64,000 nt of DNA, from NCBI GenBank assembly GCA_029261035.1, contig JAJDCD010000023.1, forward strand, positions 102,501-166,500, given 5' to 3'. Both the position numbers and the translations under genes were made by a program. Position 1 is the first letter of the stretch. Every line of letters begins with the position of its first letter. Of the stretch, positions 3,001 to 33,118 are shown piece by piece. The notes under the pieces are model-generated. The model had not been told where the DNA came from. It saw only the letters and a list, made by a program, of their open reading frames with translations, and made no database searches. Source of the stretch: Candidatus Omnitrophota bacterium (GTDB lineage: Bacteria > Omnitrophota > Omnitrophia > Omnitrophales > JACROU01).

Positions 3001-6000
3001 AAACGAAATAATATGATTGTTATCTAATATAGATTTTTTTAATTTTATAAGCCCTTCTTCAAAATCAAATTCTTCTGCTTCGTTATAGGGATATGTAACC
3101 CAGTAAGAATTAGCTAAGTCCCTATAGCCAGATCGATTCTGAGCTTGCAACAAGTCTAAATATCGAACAAACAGTTCCCTATGTTCACTTAAAATATCTT
3201 CATATTTAATGATGGATCGAATAGTTTGTTTCAACTTAGAAAGCATAGAAGAATTTTTTATCGCCTCAACTAGACTTCGAAGAAACAATCCCGGATTTTC
3301 TTTTTTTAATCGAACAGAACGAAGTGTTTTAAATTTTTCTAATTCAGGCTTTAACAATTCCATAAATTCTTGCGTCCCTTTAAAGTCTTTCTCCTTATCC
3401 CAAGAGCCTTCTCTCCCTTCAAGGAGGAAAAGTAAAGGTCGTAAGAATTGAAAAGGAAATTGTAGTCCATGAATTTCAGAGTAACGCTGAAGGTTCTTTA
3501 TAATTTTGCTTGTCAACATATCTGAAACCATTTGTTGTTTTCTTTTATACTGAGGTGTTTTCTGCACAAAGTAATCAACAATAAACAGAAGAAAAATTAT
3601 TTTTAAAAATAAACTAGAATAAAATGAAACCCAATCCCAAATCAACGTTAAATAACTACTTCCTAAACCGGATTCACCGCTAGGTTGTTCATTAAAGGAA
3701 GCCACATACGTGGCTGGATCATTCAAGCTAATTGAATGCTGTTCAGATAAATATTTTTCAAATTGTTGTAATAGAGCTACTTCATTAAGATCATTTACAT
3801 TTTTTAACTGCTCTTTATATATTCCAGCTAAAACAGAATTAAACCACTGGCTAATAAGGTTTTCTTGCAAGTGGCTATGCAGCTCATTTGTTGCTGTTGG
3901 CAGATGCCTTCTTAGTTGTGCTTTATAACGCTCTGTAATAATACGAACAGAAGTAAAAACATCCTCTTCGTCATGCTCATCTAATATAGGATGCGTTTGG
4001 GTCAGTTTATAAGTTGCTTCAAGAACAAGCTCCTCCCTGTCTCTTTCTTCATTTTCTCGAAACTCTTCTGGCATTTTCTCCCATTCCCAAAATAGTTTTA
4101 TTTTTTCTTCCCCAAGAAAAAAAGAAGCGTATAGAAAAGCATGCTGCCATTTCATATATTCATCATTATCCATCCATCCTATATAAAGACGGCTTGTGGG
4201 TAAGTTTTGTAAGTTCTTAAAAAAAGAAGAAAAGTCTTCTCTCATCTTTTTTTGAATATCACTTAATACTTCTTGCGAAACACGAAGTGAGTCCCCAAGA
4301 GCATTCGCTTTTACCACTTCCATTCCCTTATCATTCAGTGGAAAACGAGGAAGAACTACTTCTTTGATGCCAGAAGCATTTTTTGTAATCAACAATGCTG
4401 TAGAATCATAACGCAAAGCACGAATGATTATTTCTCTGATCTTCTTCTGTTGCAAAGATCGACGAGCTGTCGAAGTTTTATTAGTCGCCCCATTTTCTCC
4501 AAACAGCCACTCTCCTTCATTCGTTACGTTGAAGCTAATTTCTGTTTCTTCTCCTTCGTCTTCGTATAAAAGGGTATGCGTTTTATTCGGGAGTAGATTT
4601 TTTAAAACTTTATCCACACGCTTCAGGTGCGCTTCCAAAACAGCGGCATAGGCCAAAGATTGCATTCTTCGCTCCCTGTTGACTTCGATCCCAAAAACTG
4701 CGGTAAATTTTTTGTGATTATCTTCGCTGATATAAGGAATACCTTTTCTCGCGAGATATTTGTGATAAAAAATTGGAGAACTGCCCACTGCAATCCAGCG
4801 GACACGCGCTTGCTGATTTCCAGAAAAATATTTTAACCATCCACTTGTTCTTTCGACCCAATCAAGTGCGTATTCCACATATGCATCCATCAGAAAAGTT
4901 CCTTTGCCCGGCGGCCCTCGTTCTGATGTAGCAAGAAGGGCAAGTTCATTCTTCCTATTATCCGAATGTAAGAAACCAAGCAATTGACCAAGCTCATCTG
5001 TCAATAACAAAACCTCGTCATTACTCTCGAAATTTAAAATTTTCTCAATGGTAGTTTCCCACTGAACATTCACAGTTTCCAACGAGGTGCCAAAAGCTTC
5101 ATGGTCTAGCACTGCCAACTGCTGTAGCAATTGCATTTTGGCGGATGATCCTAATTTCAATGAAGAAAGTAAGTGCACTTGCCCCACCCCTTTTCTTTCT
5201 AAAAAAGCGGGCGTGTTCAAAAATACATTTTGAAGTTCCTTATGGATTTGCCACGCCAATTTTTTATCAATTTTTACAGGAGTTATCCCTCTAACCTTTT
5301 CAAACAAAGAATGCTTCTTTCCTAAACTTTCCGCAGAGGATTTTAAAGACGTCTCCTTGCGATGCACTACCATTTTTTTAATCTCCGCATTTTTTTCAGA
5401 TCGTGGCTCTAACTCTTCAGCTATTCTAAGAGCAGCCAAAGCTCTATTAAACTCAGATAAGTTGGCCAAAATAATGGCTTTTAATTGGTATTCTCGAGCG
5501 TCTTCTCTTGTTGCTATTCTTACAATATTTTCCAACTGATCCAAAGCTTTGCGATAAAAAGTCTGACGCTCACTTACGGACTCCGAAATATTTCCCAGAG
5601 CTTGGAATATCTCTACTTTTTTTCGAAGCAACGAAATATATGTTGGCCTTCTACGTAACCAATCCTCCACAACTTGAAGTGCTTTTTCTAGTTTTTGGCG
5701 GGTTTTAAGTTGCACTAACACAGAAAGATAAACTAAATCATTTTGAATTACTTCTGGCTTGAGGCTTCTAGCCTTTAAGATTGCGGACTCTGCTTCTTCT
5801 ATAGCTTCAGGCTCATCGGAGCTCAACAAAATTTGAGCTTTCAACATATGATTACGGTCATCCCACCCTCGATAAAGAATAGCCTCATCAATAGCTTTTA
5901 AAGCAGCTGCCAACTCACCTAAAACCCATAATACTTTTGCCTTTTGACTTAATAGAACAGAGTCTGCTGGAGAAGTCTTTAAAGCACGCTGAATAACTTG

Positions 6001-27783: not shown

Positions 27784-28881
27784 TCATTTCGTCGTTTCTT
27801 TTCCGATACGTCCGGAAAGAGGTCTAACTTTCATGTCTTCACGAATACGATTAACACCTGCAACAATAACTATCTCGCCCACACTTAAACCTTGAGTAAC
27901 CTGTATATCTTCGGTCCCTGTTATTTCTCCAAGCGTCACTTTTCTGATCGTTGCCGTTTCTGTTTCTGGATTTAAAATCCAAACTTGGCTGGCTCCTGTA
28001 GCATCGGCAAAAACAGCAGAGGATGGAATAACAAACATAGAATTTTCTGTCTCTGCTACGGATTGAGCTCTAACAGAAACAGAGGCTGTCATTCCAGGCA
28101 ACAGAGTAACTCCCTCAGGAGGATTCATTTTTAGTTTTATTCTAAATGTTTGCGTTTCACTATCTGCTTCTGTTTCCCACTCTTTAATTTCTAAATCAAA
28201 TTTTTGATTGGGGATGGAATTAAATTCCGCTTGCGCGATATAGTTTTTATCCTTTGATTTATCAATAATATCTTTTTCGGGAACATCAATAACCAACTCT
28301 AACACTGTGATGTTTTGTAAACGAACAATAGGTTCCTTGGCTTGGACATTCTGAAAATTCTCAACAAACTGTTTCGAGATAACTCCAGCAAATGGGGCTT
28401 TTAAATAGGTGTCTTCCAAAGCTTTCTCAGACACTTTCATTTCTGCGAGTTGAAACTTGTAATCTCTTTCCTTAACTTGAAAATCTGCTAAAGCGACAAC
28501 ATCTTCTTCATACAATTTTCTATAACGCTCTAATTCTGCTTCTGCCTGAGACACCTTTGCTTTCTGAGCATTTAAATTTTGTTCGAAGTTGGCAGGATCC
28601 AAACGAGCAATTAATTCCCCTTCAGATACCTCTTGTCCTCGAGTCGTCTGGAAATCAATGATTTTTCCTGTCTGCTCAAAGGAAAGATCTGCTGTCTCCA
28701 TCGCTTCTACTTTGGCGGGGTAAGAAAGAGAAGAGCCTTGCTTAAGAAGCTCCACTGTAATTGTCTTTACAGGACGCGAGACTTGCTCCTTAACGGGTTC
28801 TTCCTTTTTCTGGCAAGAACCCATTAAGGGTAAAAAAATTAAACAGCTCAATAAACAAAAAAATAATCTTTGCTTCGTCAT
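27784..28881 (-). CDS. RND periplasmic adaptor (membrane fusion protein), lipoprotein
   Basis: 365 residues. A lipoprotein signal with lipobox LMGSC (Cys about 23) is followed by the first lipoyl half (SYPAKVEAMETADLSFE), a coiled-coil hairpin (about 95-145), the second lipoyl half (YLKAPFAGVIS) and a beta-barrel part (LPGMTASVSV). Typical HlyD/AcrA family. It follows the DUF4136 lipoprotein by 15 bp and precedes the pump by 6 bp, so the three are one operon. Confidence 0.93.
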   Translation of the reverse strand: MTKQRLFFCLLSCLIFLPLMGSCQKKEEPVKEQVSRPVKTITVELLKQGSSLSYPAKVEAMETADLSFEQTGKIIDFQTTRGQEVSEGELIARLDPANFEQNLNAQKAKVSQAEAELERYRKLYEEDVVALADFQVKERDYKFQLAEMKVSEKALEDTYLKAPFAGVISKQFVENFQNVQAKEPIVRLQNITVLELVIDVPEKDIIDKSKDKNYIAQAEFNSIPNQKFDLEIKEWETEADSETQTFRIKLKMNPPEGVTLLPGMTASVSVRAQSVAETENSMFVIPSSAVFADATGASQVWILNPETETATIRKVTLGEITGTEDIQVTQGLSVGEIVIVAGVNRIREDMKVRPLSGRIGKETTK

Positions 28882-28896
28882 ACAAACATCCTTGCT

Positions 28897-29505
28897 TTAA
28901 CTACTCGCAACTTGTCCTGGAGGAAAACTAGCAAGTATCTGTGTGGCCGCCGAGTGAATGAGCTCATCTTTTTCTTCCGGAGTCATATTGTCATCAATCA
29001 CTTTGACTAACGTTCCTCTCCAAACCAAGTCTTTGGTTGCTTTATCATAAAAATCTAAGATTAAGGTTCCCTCATTGTAATAAGAAACCAAAGCGGTGTC
29101 ATTCATCATAGAACGATCCATTCGCACATTACCGAGTCGATCGACACTGATGTTGCTAGGATAATACATAGGCCCCATTCCATAACCTAACTGCTGAATG
29201 GATTGCTTTTCTTTAAGGCTGGTGTGATAAGCAATAATAAGATCTGCCTGATCTACGCTAACCTCGGAAAAACCTTTCGTATTAATGGTCCCGTTAACAG
29301 CACTTTTTAATCTCTTCTCAAAAATAGAATTTCTAGGTTTTTCTAAATGCTGTTCCTGAATTTCGGCTGGAAGCCAAGCATAATTCGTATTAGACATAAA
29401 TGCATAATCACGATCATAATCCTGACTAACTTGTGCCGTAGAACAGCTTAAAATGGTAAAAGAAACAGAAACGAGCACTCCTAAAATCCACATGGGATAC
29501 TTCAT
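28897..29505 (-). CDS. DUF4136 lipoprotein
   Basis: 202 residues with a lipobox ILSCS (Cys about 21). The body matches the DUF4136 pattern: an aromatic YAWLP after a short N-terminal strand, a KGF.EV..DQADLIIAYH segment, and late LILDFYDKATKDLVWRGT. Function of the family is unknown; many members are outer-membrane lipoproteins next to efflux genes, as here. GGAGG lies ahead of the start and a good promoter is at 29557-29586, so this is the first gene of the efflux operon. Confidence 0.85.
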   Translation of the reverse strand: MKYPMWILGVLVSVSFTILSCSTAQVSQDYDRDYAFMSNTNYAWLPAEIQEQHLEKPRNSIFEKRLKSAVNGTINTKGFSEVSVDQADLIIAYHTSLKEKQSIQQLGYGMGPMYYPSNISVDRLGNVRMDRSMMNDTALVSYYNEGTLILDFYDKATKDLVWRGTLVKVIDDNMTPEEKDELIHSAATQILASFPPGQVASS

Positions 29506-29556
29506 AGTTCACCTCCAAATTATAAGGCAAATACCTATTACTTGCCTGTAACTATA

Positions 29557-29586
29557 AGTATAACCTTACTTTAGGAATAATGCCAA
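29557..29586 (-). promoter_or_regulatory. Promoter of the DUF4136-adaptor-RND operon
   Basis: The minus strand has TTGGCA, an 18-bp spacer and TATACT. It would start about 45 nt before the DUF4136 start. A GGCAA...TTGCC inverted pair (about 29526-29546) follows the -10 and could be an operator or leader hairpin. Confidence 0.55.
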
Positions 29587-29598
29587 AAGAGGGGGTAA

Positions 29599-29775
29599 TT
29601 ATGCCCTTTTTTTCGGATTTCCGAATAAAAGATAGGCTAAAGCACCCAATAGGACAAAGACAATGACGGATAGGATCCAGATGATTTTCTGGGGTTCCTT
29701 CATATCACTTTTGAGGATATTTAAGATACAGATAACATCAACCACCATAATAAATGCTGCTAATAAAAGTTCCAT
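29599..29775 (-). CDS. Small PLDc_N-like membrane protein
   Basis: 58 residues starting MELLLAAFIM with AAGGAG before the ATG. There are two membrane helices (about 2-20 and 32-51) and a basic tail GNPKKRA. The pattern (helix, DMKEPQKIIWI, helix, YLLFG) matches the N-terminal module of phospholipase-D-type cardiolipin synthases that also occurs alone as a small membrane protein. Function unknown. Lies upstream of the efflux operon, 13 bp from its promoter. Confidence 0.75.
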   Translation of the reverse strand: MELLLAAFIMVVDVICILNILKSDMKEPQKIIWILSVIVFVLLGALAYLLFGNPKKRA

Positions 29776-29807
29776 GGGTTCTCCTTAAGTTTATCTATTC
29801 TTTATTT

Positions 29808-29866
29808 GGGGACATGGACTTTTGATATTGTTGCGATAGCAACTGTGTCAAAAGTGCGTGCCCCCC
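29808..29866. repeat. Outer palindrome, left copy (methyltransferase island)
   Basis: A near-perfect hairpin: GGGGACATGGACTTTTGATA... pairs with ...TCAAAAGTGCGTGCCCC around a GATA loop. The copy at 30887-30941 is the same element reversed. Together they bracket the methyltransferase. Confidence 0.85.
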
Positions 29867-29875
29867 GGACTCCAG

Positions 29876-29927
29876 CGAGGTGACAGTCACTTAGCTCTGA
29901 TTATCATCAGGCAAATGACAGTCACCT
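29876..29927. repeat. Inner GTGACAGTCAC palindrome, left copy
   Basis: Two GTGACAGTCAC-type boxes (about 29880 and 29916) bracket a TTAGCTCTGATTATCATCAG centre. The methyltransferase stop codon at 29891 lies inside this element, so its last dozen residues are repeat-encoded. The same family occurs at 30824-30873, 58782-58829 and (half) near 18839. Confidence 0.85.
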
Positions 29928-30607
29928 TTAGTTCCACCAAAAATAGCATATCCATAATATTTCCAAAAACAATCCACATCACAAAAACCTGCTGCTCGAA
30001 GCCAATTCAATTGCTGTAACAAAGAAGAAGGTTGATCATATTCCAAATGCCGCTTAAACCAATAGGCATCATCTTCTCCATTGGCAGAAACAAATTCTCT
30101 CCACTTCTTTTGATAAAGACGTGTGAGCTCTTCAGTTTCTCCAATAAGCACATCTCGGTTTACAAAAAATCCGCCTGGAGCTAGGCAATCAAATATTTCC
30201 TGATAAACGCCTTCCCTCTCTGGGTCTGTCAAATGATGTAAAGCGAGACTCGTAATAATAAGATCATAATCTTCTCCCATCAAATCTTGAGTGCAGTCTC
30301 CCTGCTGAAAAGAAACTCGTCCTTCAAAATTAATAAGAAGTTCCTTAGACTTGTCGATCATGTTTTCAGACAAATCAAAAGCATGTAACGTTGACTCTGG
30401 AAATTTTTGAAGAATGAGATAAGAAAGCACCCCTGTTCCACAACCTAAGTCGAGTACTTTGAGTTCCTTATCCGTAGGAAATGGGATCAACTCTAATAAG
30501 AACTGATTTTGCTCCGCATATTTGGGGATGAGTTTTAAGATAGTCTCATCATACTGCAAAGCTTGGTCATCAAAGTTTTTTTGAATTTTATCTGCATCCA
30601 TACCCAT
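29891..30607 (-). CDS. Class I SAM-dependent methyltransferase
   Basis: 238 residues with a complete Rossmann SAM domain: VLDLGCGTGVLSYLIL near 49-64, HAFDLSENMIDKSKE, QQGDCTQDL and ITSLALHHLTDPE. The C-terminal half (YWFKRHLEYDQPSSLL) resembles CmoA/TehB-like small-molecule methyltransferases; the substrate is not evident. The C-terminus TKGDCHLPDDNQS is encoded by the palindromic repeat, implying that the original stop was replaced. No Shine-Dalgarno sequence is clear. The gene lies inside two nested inverted repeat pairs. Confidence 0.8.
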   Translation of the reverse strand: MGMDADKIQKNFDDQALQYDETILKLIPKYAEQNQFLLELIPFPTDKELKVLDLGCGTGVLSYLILQKFPESTLHAFDLSENMIDKSKELLINFEGRVSFQQGDCTQDLMGEDYDLIITSLALHHLTDPEREGVYQEIFDCLAPGGFFVNRDVLIGETEELTRLYQKKWREFVSANGEDDAYWFKRHLEYDQPSSLLQQLNWLRAAGFCDVDCFWKYYGYAIFGGTKGDCHLPDDNQS

Positions 30608-30823
30608 ATTTTAACACAAAAGGTATTTTCTCTCGTCTGCAAAATGCTCCACATTTTCTGAAGTGATTTCGGTTAAATCGTTTGAGTTTTTTTGCGGACA
30701 TATCTTTATGGAAAGATTTCATTGGCAAGCCTCCTGGGTATTTTAGTTGATACAACCAAAAACAGGACGTTGCAAAGGCCTCTATATAAATCATCGACTT
30801 TTCAGAACACTTCTGAAGGGAAG

Positions 30824-30873
30824 AGGTGACTGTCACTTGCCTGCTGGCAAGCAGAGCTAAGTGACTGTCACCT
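30824..30873. repeat. Inner GTGACAGTCAC palindrome, right copy (inverted)
   Basis: GGTGACTGTCAC (30825-30836) and GTGACTGTCACC (30861-30872) flank a TTGCCTGCTGGCAAG centre. It is the reverse counterpart of 29876-29927. The 30608-30823 stretch next to it holds no gene I can support. Confidence 0.85.
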
Positions 30874-30886
30874 TTTGAATAGTAAG

Positions 30887-30941
30887 GGGACACACACTTT
30901 TGACACAGTTGCTACGCACAATATCAAAAGTCTATGTCCCC
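30887..30941. repeat. Outer palindrome, right copy (inverted)
   Basis: A hairpin with arms GGGGACACACACTTTTGACA and its partner TCAAAAGTCTATGTCCCC. It is the inverted counterpart of 29808-29866. It lies 23 bp past the cysN stop and may double as its transcript end. Confidence 0.85.
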
Positions 30942-30964
30942 AAGAATTTTAGGATGACCATAGA

Positions 30965-32773
30965 CTAAATCTCGTAACTATCTGTCTGATCTTCGAAAAT
31001 TTGGTTGGATTTTAAGAAGCTAACGATCGTAGACGCATTTTTATCAACAGCATCTTTCTGTTTAAGATCCAAATCCACGATCCCTTGAGAAAAGGCGCTC
31101 TTACCTACATTCACAATAAAAAAGTTTTCTCGGTCTGTCACTTCTTGCAAGAGACGAACCTCATCATCATTTAAATTACTGGCTGTAGCAACCACGATTA
31201 AACCGGCATCCATTAAAATATGGGCTACTTCCCCAAGCCGTCGAACATGCTCTCTTCTGGATTGTTTGTCTTGATCTACATCCGCATCCAACCCTCGCAA
31301 TAAATTCCCTATCCCTAAGAAATAAGCTTTCCCGCCAAGTTCAAAAACTTGCTTCTCAACTTGTTTGGCAATCGACCTTTTATCAATTCCAACTTTTCCC
31401 GTCAGAAGAACCAGTTTTGAACCATGCCCATACTTAGACCGTCTTTCGGTAGAAGCAATCTCGCTAAAATCCCAATTAATTTCTCGCTCTGTAACCTGCT
31501 CGCGAACTTCGGACTGCTCATCTTTAATAATTGCAGAGACTGTTCCTCCGCCTGCAATGTCATATTGATCTACAATCACAAAACGTCCTGTTGATTCAAT
31601 TAAATTAGCCACATCAAAAGCCACAGGGTAAGCACATTCAAACACACATTGAGCCACTTCATGACGCTCTACTTTTTTCTTCGTTTCATTTTTTAAGTCG
31701 GAAGCATCAATCACCTTCTTAATTTCTTTTAGCCACATCGGTGCCTGGAATGTTCCTATCTTTAATTTATATTCCTTATTCATCTCTAAAGGCTTGCGGC
31801 CCATCCAAAAAATCTCCGCTTGAAACAATGGGCTCACCGAAGGATGCTCCTCATCCACCTTACACATAATATCGCCACGATTAATATAGATTTGTTCCTT
31901 TAACGTGAAACCCGTGGAGTAACCGGCAACTGCTTTTTTTTGCTCTGGCAAATTAAACCCTTCGATCGAAGAAATTTCAGATCTCTTATTGGAAGGCAGA
32001 AAAATAACCTGGTCCCCAACAGAAATGCTGCCCGATTCAATACGACCCGATACAATACGTCGATCATCCCCTTGTGCTGTAAATTTATAAACCGCCTGAA
32101 TAGGCATGCGAAAAGGAAGCTTCTCAACAGATGCCTGTTTCTTAAACGAATCTAAAACCTTTAAAACATGCTCGCCCTTAAACCAGGAGAGTTTCTCTGA
32201 AGGCTCTATAATATTGTCCCCTTGCATTGCAGAGATCGGCACAAAGAACTGAGGTTCCAATCCTATTTGCTTTAAAAACTCACGATAGTTTTTCTCGATA
32301 TCGTCATACACTTCTTGACTATAATCCACCAAATCCATTTTGTTCACAACAACAGCAATTTGCTTTATTCCCAGCATAGACAGAAGGTAACCATGGCGCT
32401 TTGAATTTTCTTTAATGCCTTCATTCGCATCAATCACAAGAAGAGCCGCTTCCGCTCGTGCTGCCCCCGAAATCATATTCTTCAAAAACTCAATATGGCC
32501 TGGCGCATCAATAATAATGTACTCTCTCTTTTTGCTCTTAAAAAAACAACGCGCTGAATCAATGGTGATCCCTTGAGACTGCTCATCTTTTAAGGCATCT
32601 AAAAGAAACGCATACTCGAAAGGTTTAGAGTTCCGAGCACACTCCGCCTTCACCTGCTCCAACTTTCCTTGAGGTAGAGACCCCGTGTCGGCCAAGAGAC
32701 GTCCAATTACCGTACTCTTACCATGGTCCACATGACCCACAATCACAATATTCATTTTTTGTTGTGTTTCCAT
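30965..32773 (-). CDS. cysN: Sulfate adenylyltransferase GTPase subunit (CysN) with degenerate APS-kinase domain
   Basis: 602 residues from the ATG at 32773 (METQQKMN), preceded by AAAGGA; a longer start would read into a repeat. The GTPase domain is EF-Tu-like: [25 protein letters not shown]. Then come beta-barrel domains 2 and 3 to about residue 425. The last 170 residues have the APS-kinase fold pattern ([20 protein letters not shown]), but the P-loop reads [10 protein letters not shown] and the usual DGDN is GIGN, so the kinase is probably inactive. With CysD it makes adenosine phosphosulfate from sulfate and ATP. Confidence 0.88.
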
Positions 32774-32790
32774 AACATCCTTTAATAGCG

Positions 32791-32819
32791 TCATTCCCGC
32801 GCAGGCGGGAATCCAGTTG
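32791..32819. repeat. CATTCCCGCG-type hairpin, downstream side of the GIY-YIG gene
   Basis: TTCCCGCGCAGGCGGGAA hairpin ending in ATCCAGTTG. The same element in the same orientation lies at 33185-33213, on the other side of the GIY-YIG gene. Confidence 0.8.
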
Positions 32820-32821
32820 CT

Positions 32822-33118
32822 TTATAAAACAGCTATCTCTTCAAACAAGTCTTTCCAATCAGGATTCTTTGATTCGATTAATTTTAATTTCCAATCTCTA
32901 TTCCACTTTTTCAATCTTTTCTCTCTTAAAATTGCTGTATTGATATCTGGTGTTTCTTCAAAATAAACTAGTTTGTGCGTGCTGTACTTTTTTGAAAAGC
33001 CATCAACGTAGTTATTTTTATGTTCATACACCCTTTTGATTAAGTCGCTTGTTACTCCAATATAAAGAGTTCCGCTACGTTTATTAGCTAAGATATATAC
33101 GTAATAGCTTTTATCCAT
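32822..33118 (-). CDS. GIY-YIG endonuclease-family protein
   Basis: 98 residues: YYVYILANKRSGTLYIGVTS carries the GIY and YIG elements (YVY, YIG). The conserved Arg is in LIKRVYEHK, and Glu occurs in REKRLKKWNR. This is the small single-domain (YhbQ-like) type whose cellular role is poorly known. It is squeezed between cysD and cysN and bordered by direct repeats at 32791-32819 and 33185-33213, which suggests it arrived as a cassette. Confidence 0.88.
   Translation of the reverse strand: MDKSYYVYILANKRSGTLYIGVTSDLIKRVYEHKNNYVDGFSKKYSTHKLVYFEETPDINTAILREKRLKKWNRDWKLKLIESKNPDWKDLFEEIAVL

Follow-up and report, generated by a model that had tools for sequence, protein, structure and literature searches.

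The window analysed here is a 64,000-nucleotide stretch (G000:C16:102501-166500) of a 2.7-Mb draft genome. It contains a methyltransferase gene that lies between a CysN/CysC-type gene (cysNC) and a small ORF, all three on the minus strand. Palindromes of two kinds stand around the methyltransferase gene in mirror order, outer then inner on the left and inner then outer on the right. The features of the locus are as follows (window coordinates):

29605..29775, minus strand: small ORF with a PLDc_N domain, downstream of the left palindrome pair
29808..29866, minus strand: outer palindrome, left copy, GGGGGGCACGCACTTTTGACACAGTTGC..GCAACAATATCAAAAGTCCATGTCCCC when read on the minus strand, 25 nt past the methyltransferase stop
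29867..29877, no strand: left junction between outer and inner palindromes, 11 nt, without similarity to the right junction
29878..29927, minus strand: inner palindrome, left copy, in sense orientation and docked at the native stop position of the methyltransferase
29891..30607, minus strand: class I SAM-dependent methyltransferase (Methyltransf_25/31/12/11), 238 aa
30608..30823, minus strand: region upstream of the methyltransferase, 216 nt, with no known RNA family
30824..30873, plus strand: inner palindrome, right copy, antisense to local transcription
30874..30885, no strand: 12-nt right junction between inner and outer palindromes, without similarity to the left one
30886..30941, plus strand: outer palindrome, right copy, 24 nt past the cysNC stop
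30965..32794, minus strand: CysN/CysC-type gene (GTPase plus APS kinase), with the right palindrome pair at its 3' end

No Rfam family or riboswitch was matched at 29500-31200. We took a 101-aa ORF at 30588-30893 as spurious (it has no family match and runs through the right inner palindrome). Further along, a GIY-YIG nuclease-like ORF of low GC (0.30) lies at 32822-33118 between cysNC and cysD, two genes that adjoin each other in relatives. When genomes labelled by organism were scanned, the methyltransferase gave no match, and cysNC matched one MAG labelled Chlamydiae and one Omnitrophota MAG, which makes Omnitrophota a tentative assignment of the lineage.

The original prediction described two nested inverted palindrome pairs around the methyltransferase at 29808-30941, with the stop of the gene inside the left inner copy. 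The pairs are real by repeat search, motif counts and folding, and the stop codon indeed lies within that copy, at 29891-29893 (minus strand). Repeat search recovered the inner inverted pair (29878-29927 and 30824-30873; 50 nt with 90% complementarity), and it gave the outer pair as two segments (29837-29865 and 30886-30914, 29 nt, 93%; 29806-29831 and 30918-30943, 26 nt, 96%). Using expectations from dinucleotide shuffles, we counted 20 matches to GGTGACWGTCACY in the window with at most two mismatches (1.3 expected) and 4 matches to GGGGACACRSACTTTTGA with at most three (0.15 expected); these counts rule out a chance origin of the palindrome copies. All four copies in the window form strong hairpins, with z of about -5 to -7 as compared to shuffles.

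With covariance models built on the family alignments, we located 24 outer copies in the genome and about 34 inner copies of full length, plus about 34 short inner ones (about 28 nt, made of two GTGACWGTCAC units); together they form 65 clusters. Both families are found at dozens of unrelated loci, as singles or doublets, at the ends of many unrelated genes, which is what the original prediction had named as speaking against its own proposal of a mobile cassette. The alignments show a conserved bulged hairpin in the inner family. The outer family also has a conserved hairpin, in which the mismatches are constant and six base pairs show compensatory changes. A 30-nt tail that folds into a small hairpin of its own (GGGTACAGCCTACCC) is found at the 5' end of most outer copies but is missing from both window copies. 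The bases before inner copies are variable, and those before most outer copies are CCTA or similar. At the thresholds used, both families are private to this lineage or genome: a search of 44 relatives gave no outer copies and, for the inner family, nothing but short GTGACTGTCAC-type copies in G002.

Apart from two inner copies in small doubtful ORFs, the 31 inner and 24 outer copies that were read are intergenic or touch gene ends only. The remaining inner copies lie in tandem (21) or convergent (8) gene contexts, with none in a divergent spacer; the outer copies are distributed as 20 tandem, 2 convergent and 2 divergent. Six inner doublets pair a plus with a minus copy head to head, their starts separated by 63-90 nt, which is the geometry of REPINs and BIMEs, and there is one outer doublet. 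Stacks of an inner followed by an outer copy in the same orientation also occur elsewhere (L016/L037, L018/L033, L021/L034, L030/L097, L074/L040, and L063/L100).

These properties resemble those of REP/BIME and REPIN elements and their RAYT (TnpA-REP) transposases (PMC3116915, PMC8266576), which likewise are short imperfect palindromes with conserved mismatches, present in dozens of mostly intergenic copies and in inverted doublets. The differences are that our families have tens rather than hundreds of copies, that two families are stacked, that the inner one is fused to stop codons one way, and that no GTAG tetranucleotide precedes the hairpins of either family; because of this last point we file them as REP-type rather than as GTAG-REPs. 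As in REPIN/RAYT systems (PMC3116915, PMC8266576), a RAYT gene (L048) is flanked by the inner palindrome. It is one of four PF01797 genes in the genome (L048 scores above the Pfam Y1_Tnp cut-off), all of which match the NCBIfam model of REP-associated tyrosine transposases below its curated cut-off (REP_Tyr_transpos score of 67 against a cut-off of 80 for L048). Each of the four genes is bracketed by its own, different repeat:

L048: GTGACWGTCAC on both sides, within GGGACA/TGTCCC, which is the inner motif
L049: GCCCGGGCC
L050: AAAGTGCCAGGCCTTTC
L051: GGGACAGTCCCCTAGGGGGACAG, in inverted orientation

Since L048 is bracketed by the inner motif, it is the likely partner of the inner family and likely the transposase that moves it, judging from sequence. 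The outer family itself flanks none of the four; CCTAGGGGGACAG, present at the ends of L051, resembles only the first bases of the outer element, and movement of the outer family by any RAYT is something we infer. The palindrome of L051 has further near matches elsewhere in the genome, and with L049, L050 and L051 each having a different palindrome, the genome hosts several REP systems.

Inner elements dock at stop codons, and they do so in a single orientation. In 14 of the 31 inner copies read, a long upstream ORF ends within the element, and the element is always in sense orientation (this count excludes L060, whose apparent docking was discarded as an antisense ORF within the cyclophilin gene). 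Ten of the 14 docked stops are T-AG, the T lying in front of the element, two are TGA, and two are TAA reached after 11-12 residues (this methyltransferase and NuoF). Because AGTGAC reads inward from both ends of the element, a T in front gives TAG in either orientation, so the docking orientation is not explained by the supply of stop codons alone. Among inner copies preceded by T, the TAG is a real gene stop in 10 of 14 sense copies versus 0 of 14 antisense copies; about 2% would be expected to be real stops from intergenic TAGs in the window (binomial p about 1e-14). Two explanations are available for this bias, strand-specific insertion (target choice by a RAYT) and selection acting on the hairpin in the mRNA.

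The methyltransferase indicates how such a docking came about. Residues 1-227 are common to its homologs, and the last 11 (GDCHLPDDNQS) together with the TAA stop are encoded by the palindrome. At least seven homologs (L142, L147 and L158, read out of frame or beyond their ends, being left out of the C-terminus comparison) terminate at ..GGxK-stop or one residue later, which is where the inner element starts here; since the homologs end where the element begins, the element entered at a pre-existing stop codon. A related tail, SDCHLPVETQS, is found at the C-terminus of NuoF (Complex I 51-kDa subunit; L062/L139, G000:C16:53467-54744), also from the inner palindrome and read in the same frame as that of the methyltransferase.

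We tentatively suggest, at somewhat less than even probability, that the inner palindrome is mobile and directed to stop codons, inserting in sense only and supplying either a TAG or a short tail (DCHLPxxxQS); it would be a RAYT-type element that uses gene termini as safe, transcription-oriented targets. Rickettsia palindromic elements are mobile palindromes that add residues to proteins. Our inner family is like them and like the Coxiella MITEs that contribute coding sequence (PMC5896051) in that mobile palindromes add protein residues, and it differs in acting at the extreme C-terminus, in its fixed orientation and in its link to a RAYT. REPs of E. coli within 15 nt of a stop codon are reported to stall ribosomes there (summarised in PMC12306157). 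As with those, the palindrome here lies directly at the ORF end; unlike those, it supplies the stop itself (T-AG), with a tail of 11-12 residues in two proteins. Location near stops is thus familiar from E. coli REPs, oriented fusion less so. What novelty there may be concerns the way the inner family docks at stop codons in a fixed orientation, for which no description was found in the literature searched, an outcome that is not proof of newness.

The palindromes might instead be purely functional signals at mRNA ends, acting as terminators or as stabilisers of the REP kind, that selection maintains and that have not moved recently. Their siting at gene 3' ends with no inner copy in a divergent spacer, the covarying hairpins and the fixed sense orientation at stops are all in keeping with this. 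We nevertheless consider it very unlikely as the whole explanation: no intrinsic terminators with a T-tract were found at the palindromes, and two private families in tens of copies, together with a RAYT bearing the inner motif, argue for spread by copying. Function and mobility as REPs are compatible and can both hold.

As for the methyltransferase gene itself, the original prediction saw what looked like a 1.1-kb composite cassette with stacked miniature elements at its ends, of a sort that a trans-acting transposase might mobilise as one; the gene would then be cargo between inverted inner-outer ends. Miniature elements and candidate trans-acting transposases do exist, as the two families and the RAYTs of the genome attest; it is the composite cassette that finds no support. 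In favour of it are the nested inverted ends of similar architecture (no 30-nt tail on either outer copy, and junctions of 11-12 nt), which independent insertion does not obviously predict, the symmetric nesting of both families around a gene, seen at no other locus, the presence of RAYTs, the absence of the gene beside cysNC in relatives, and its patchy distribution, with occurrences in 19 of 384 genomes of the phylum. We rejected the methyltransferase as a syntenic neighbour of cysNC: contrary to the conservation in place that was to count against a cassette, it is missing at every relative's cysNC locus, and because no methyltransferase lies within 1.5 kb of cysNC in relatives, the gene may have arrived, by one route or another, in this lineage alone. 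A foreign composition of the gene was also rejected, as its GC (0.381) and GC3 (0.31) are like those of its neighbours.

Several observations argue against the cassette. Homologs of the methyltransferase in the 18 other genomes have neither palindrome family within their 1.5-kb flanks, and the C-terminus places the entry of the inner element at a stop codon that already existed. The two ends do not form a closest pair: the inner pair of the window ranks 35 of 465 by identity and the outer pair 44 of 276, and for three of the four window copies some copy elsewhere is at least as similar as the window partner (the right inner copy has its closest match at C16:545936, 94% as compared to 90% to its window partner; the left outer copy is 92% identical to copies elsewhere and 90% to its partner). 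The junctions at the two ends have no sequence in common. A search of the genome for other genes with the same paired ends gave no second nested inner-outer enclosure. Simpler enclosures are frequent: 13 pairs of neighbouring clusters lie less than 2 kb apart versus 3.1 expected under uniform placement, and such pairs enclose groEL, a cyclophilin gene, msrA and a DUF924 gene, the cyclophilin gene sitting between an inverted inner pair in the same geometry as at the methyltransferase. The short target duplication that the original prediction suggested looking for is not convincing, as only 3-4 nt AT-rich matches are found; Y1 transposition would leave no target duplication, and a missing one is uninformative there. 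Taken with the dispersal of both families, these observations make the cassette very unlikely.

Around groEL, two near-identical short-inner doublets with similar spacers lie in the same orientation (G000:C20:26307-26392 and 28146-28220; L136), which suggests local copying of REP doublets. By analogy with this local duplication of a doublet and its spacer, which is in direct orientation, the arrangement at the methyltransferase could be a local inverted duplication of one inner-outer stack, by template switching or rearrangement, and order and spacing are the same at both of its ends. The unrelated junctions and the three copies with equal or closer relatives elsewhere make such a duplication highly improbable here.

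We therefore regard it as very probable that cysNC and the methyltransferase gene each carry, at the 3' end, a stack of REP-type elements from two lineage-private families, and that the methyltransferase is not cargo. The two families would have spread in trans, probably by the Y1 (RAYT/TnpA-REP) transposases of the genome, inner-outer (BIME-like) stacks would have formed at the 3' ends of these two successive same-strand genes, and the methyltransferase would be enclosed merely as the gene between two such ends. The hairpins may act in mRNA by protecting 3' ends or controlling translation, roles that have been reported for REPs of E. coli. A striking nested-inverted arrangement can thus arise from dispersed 3'-end REP elements, and enclosure alone does not make a cassette.

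Another arrangement of related sequence was observed at L138. A 112-nt element is present there in two copies (G000:C1:34-145 and 1608-1719, 92% identical) around a ketoacyl-synthase-like gene and is built as AGAATGTTCTCCG...CGGAGAACATTCT around an inner-type core; the bases immediately outside the copies are complementary too (CCAG/CTGG and CAAT/ATTG). The GAATGTTCTCCGGCGCTCAGACAGCACA half of this element is also found 5' of several inner-outer stacks (L034, L033, L088, and L097). The same locus contains, near a contig end, a 138-nt direct repeat (1395-1532 and 3862-4000, about 90% identical) upstream of two genes.
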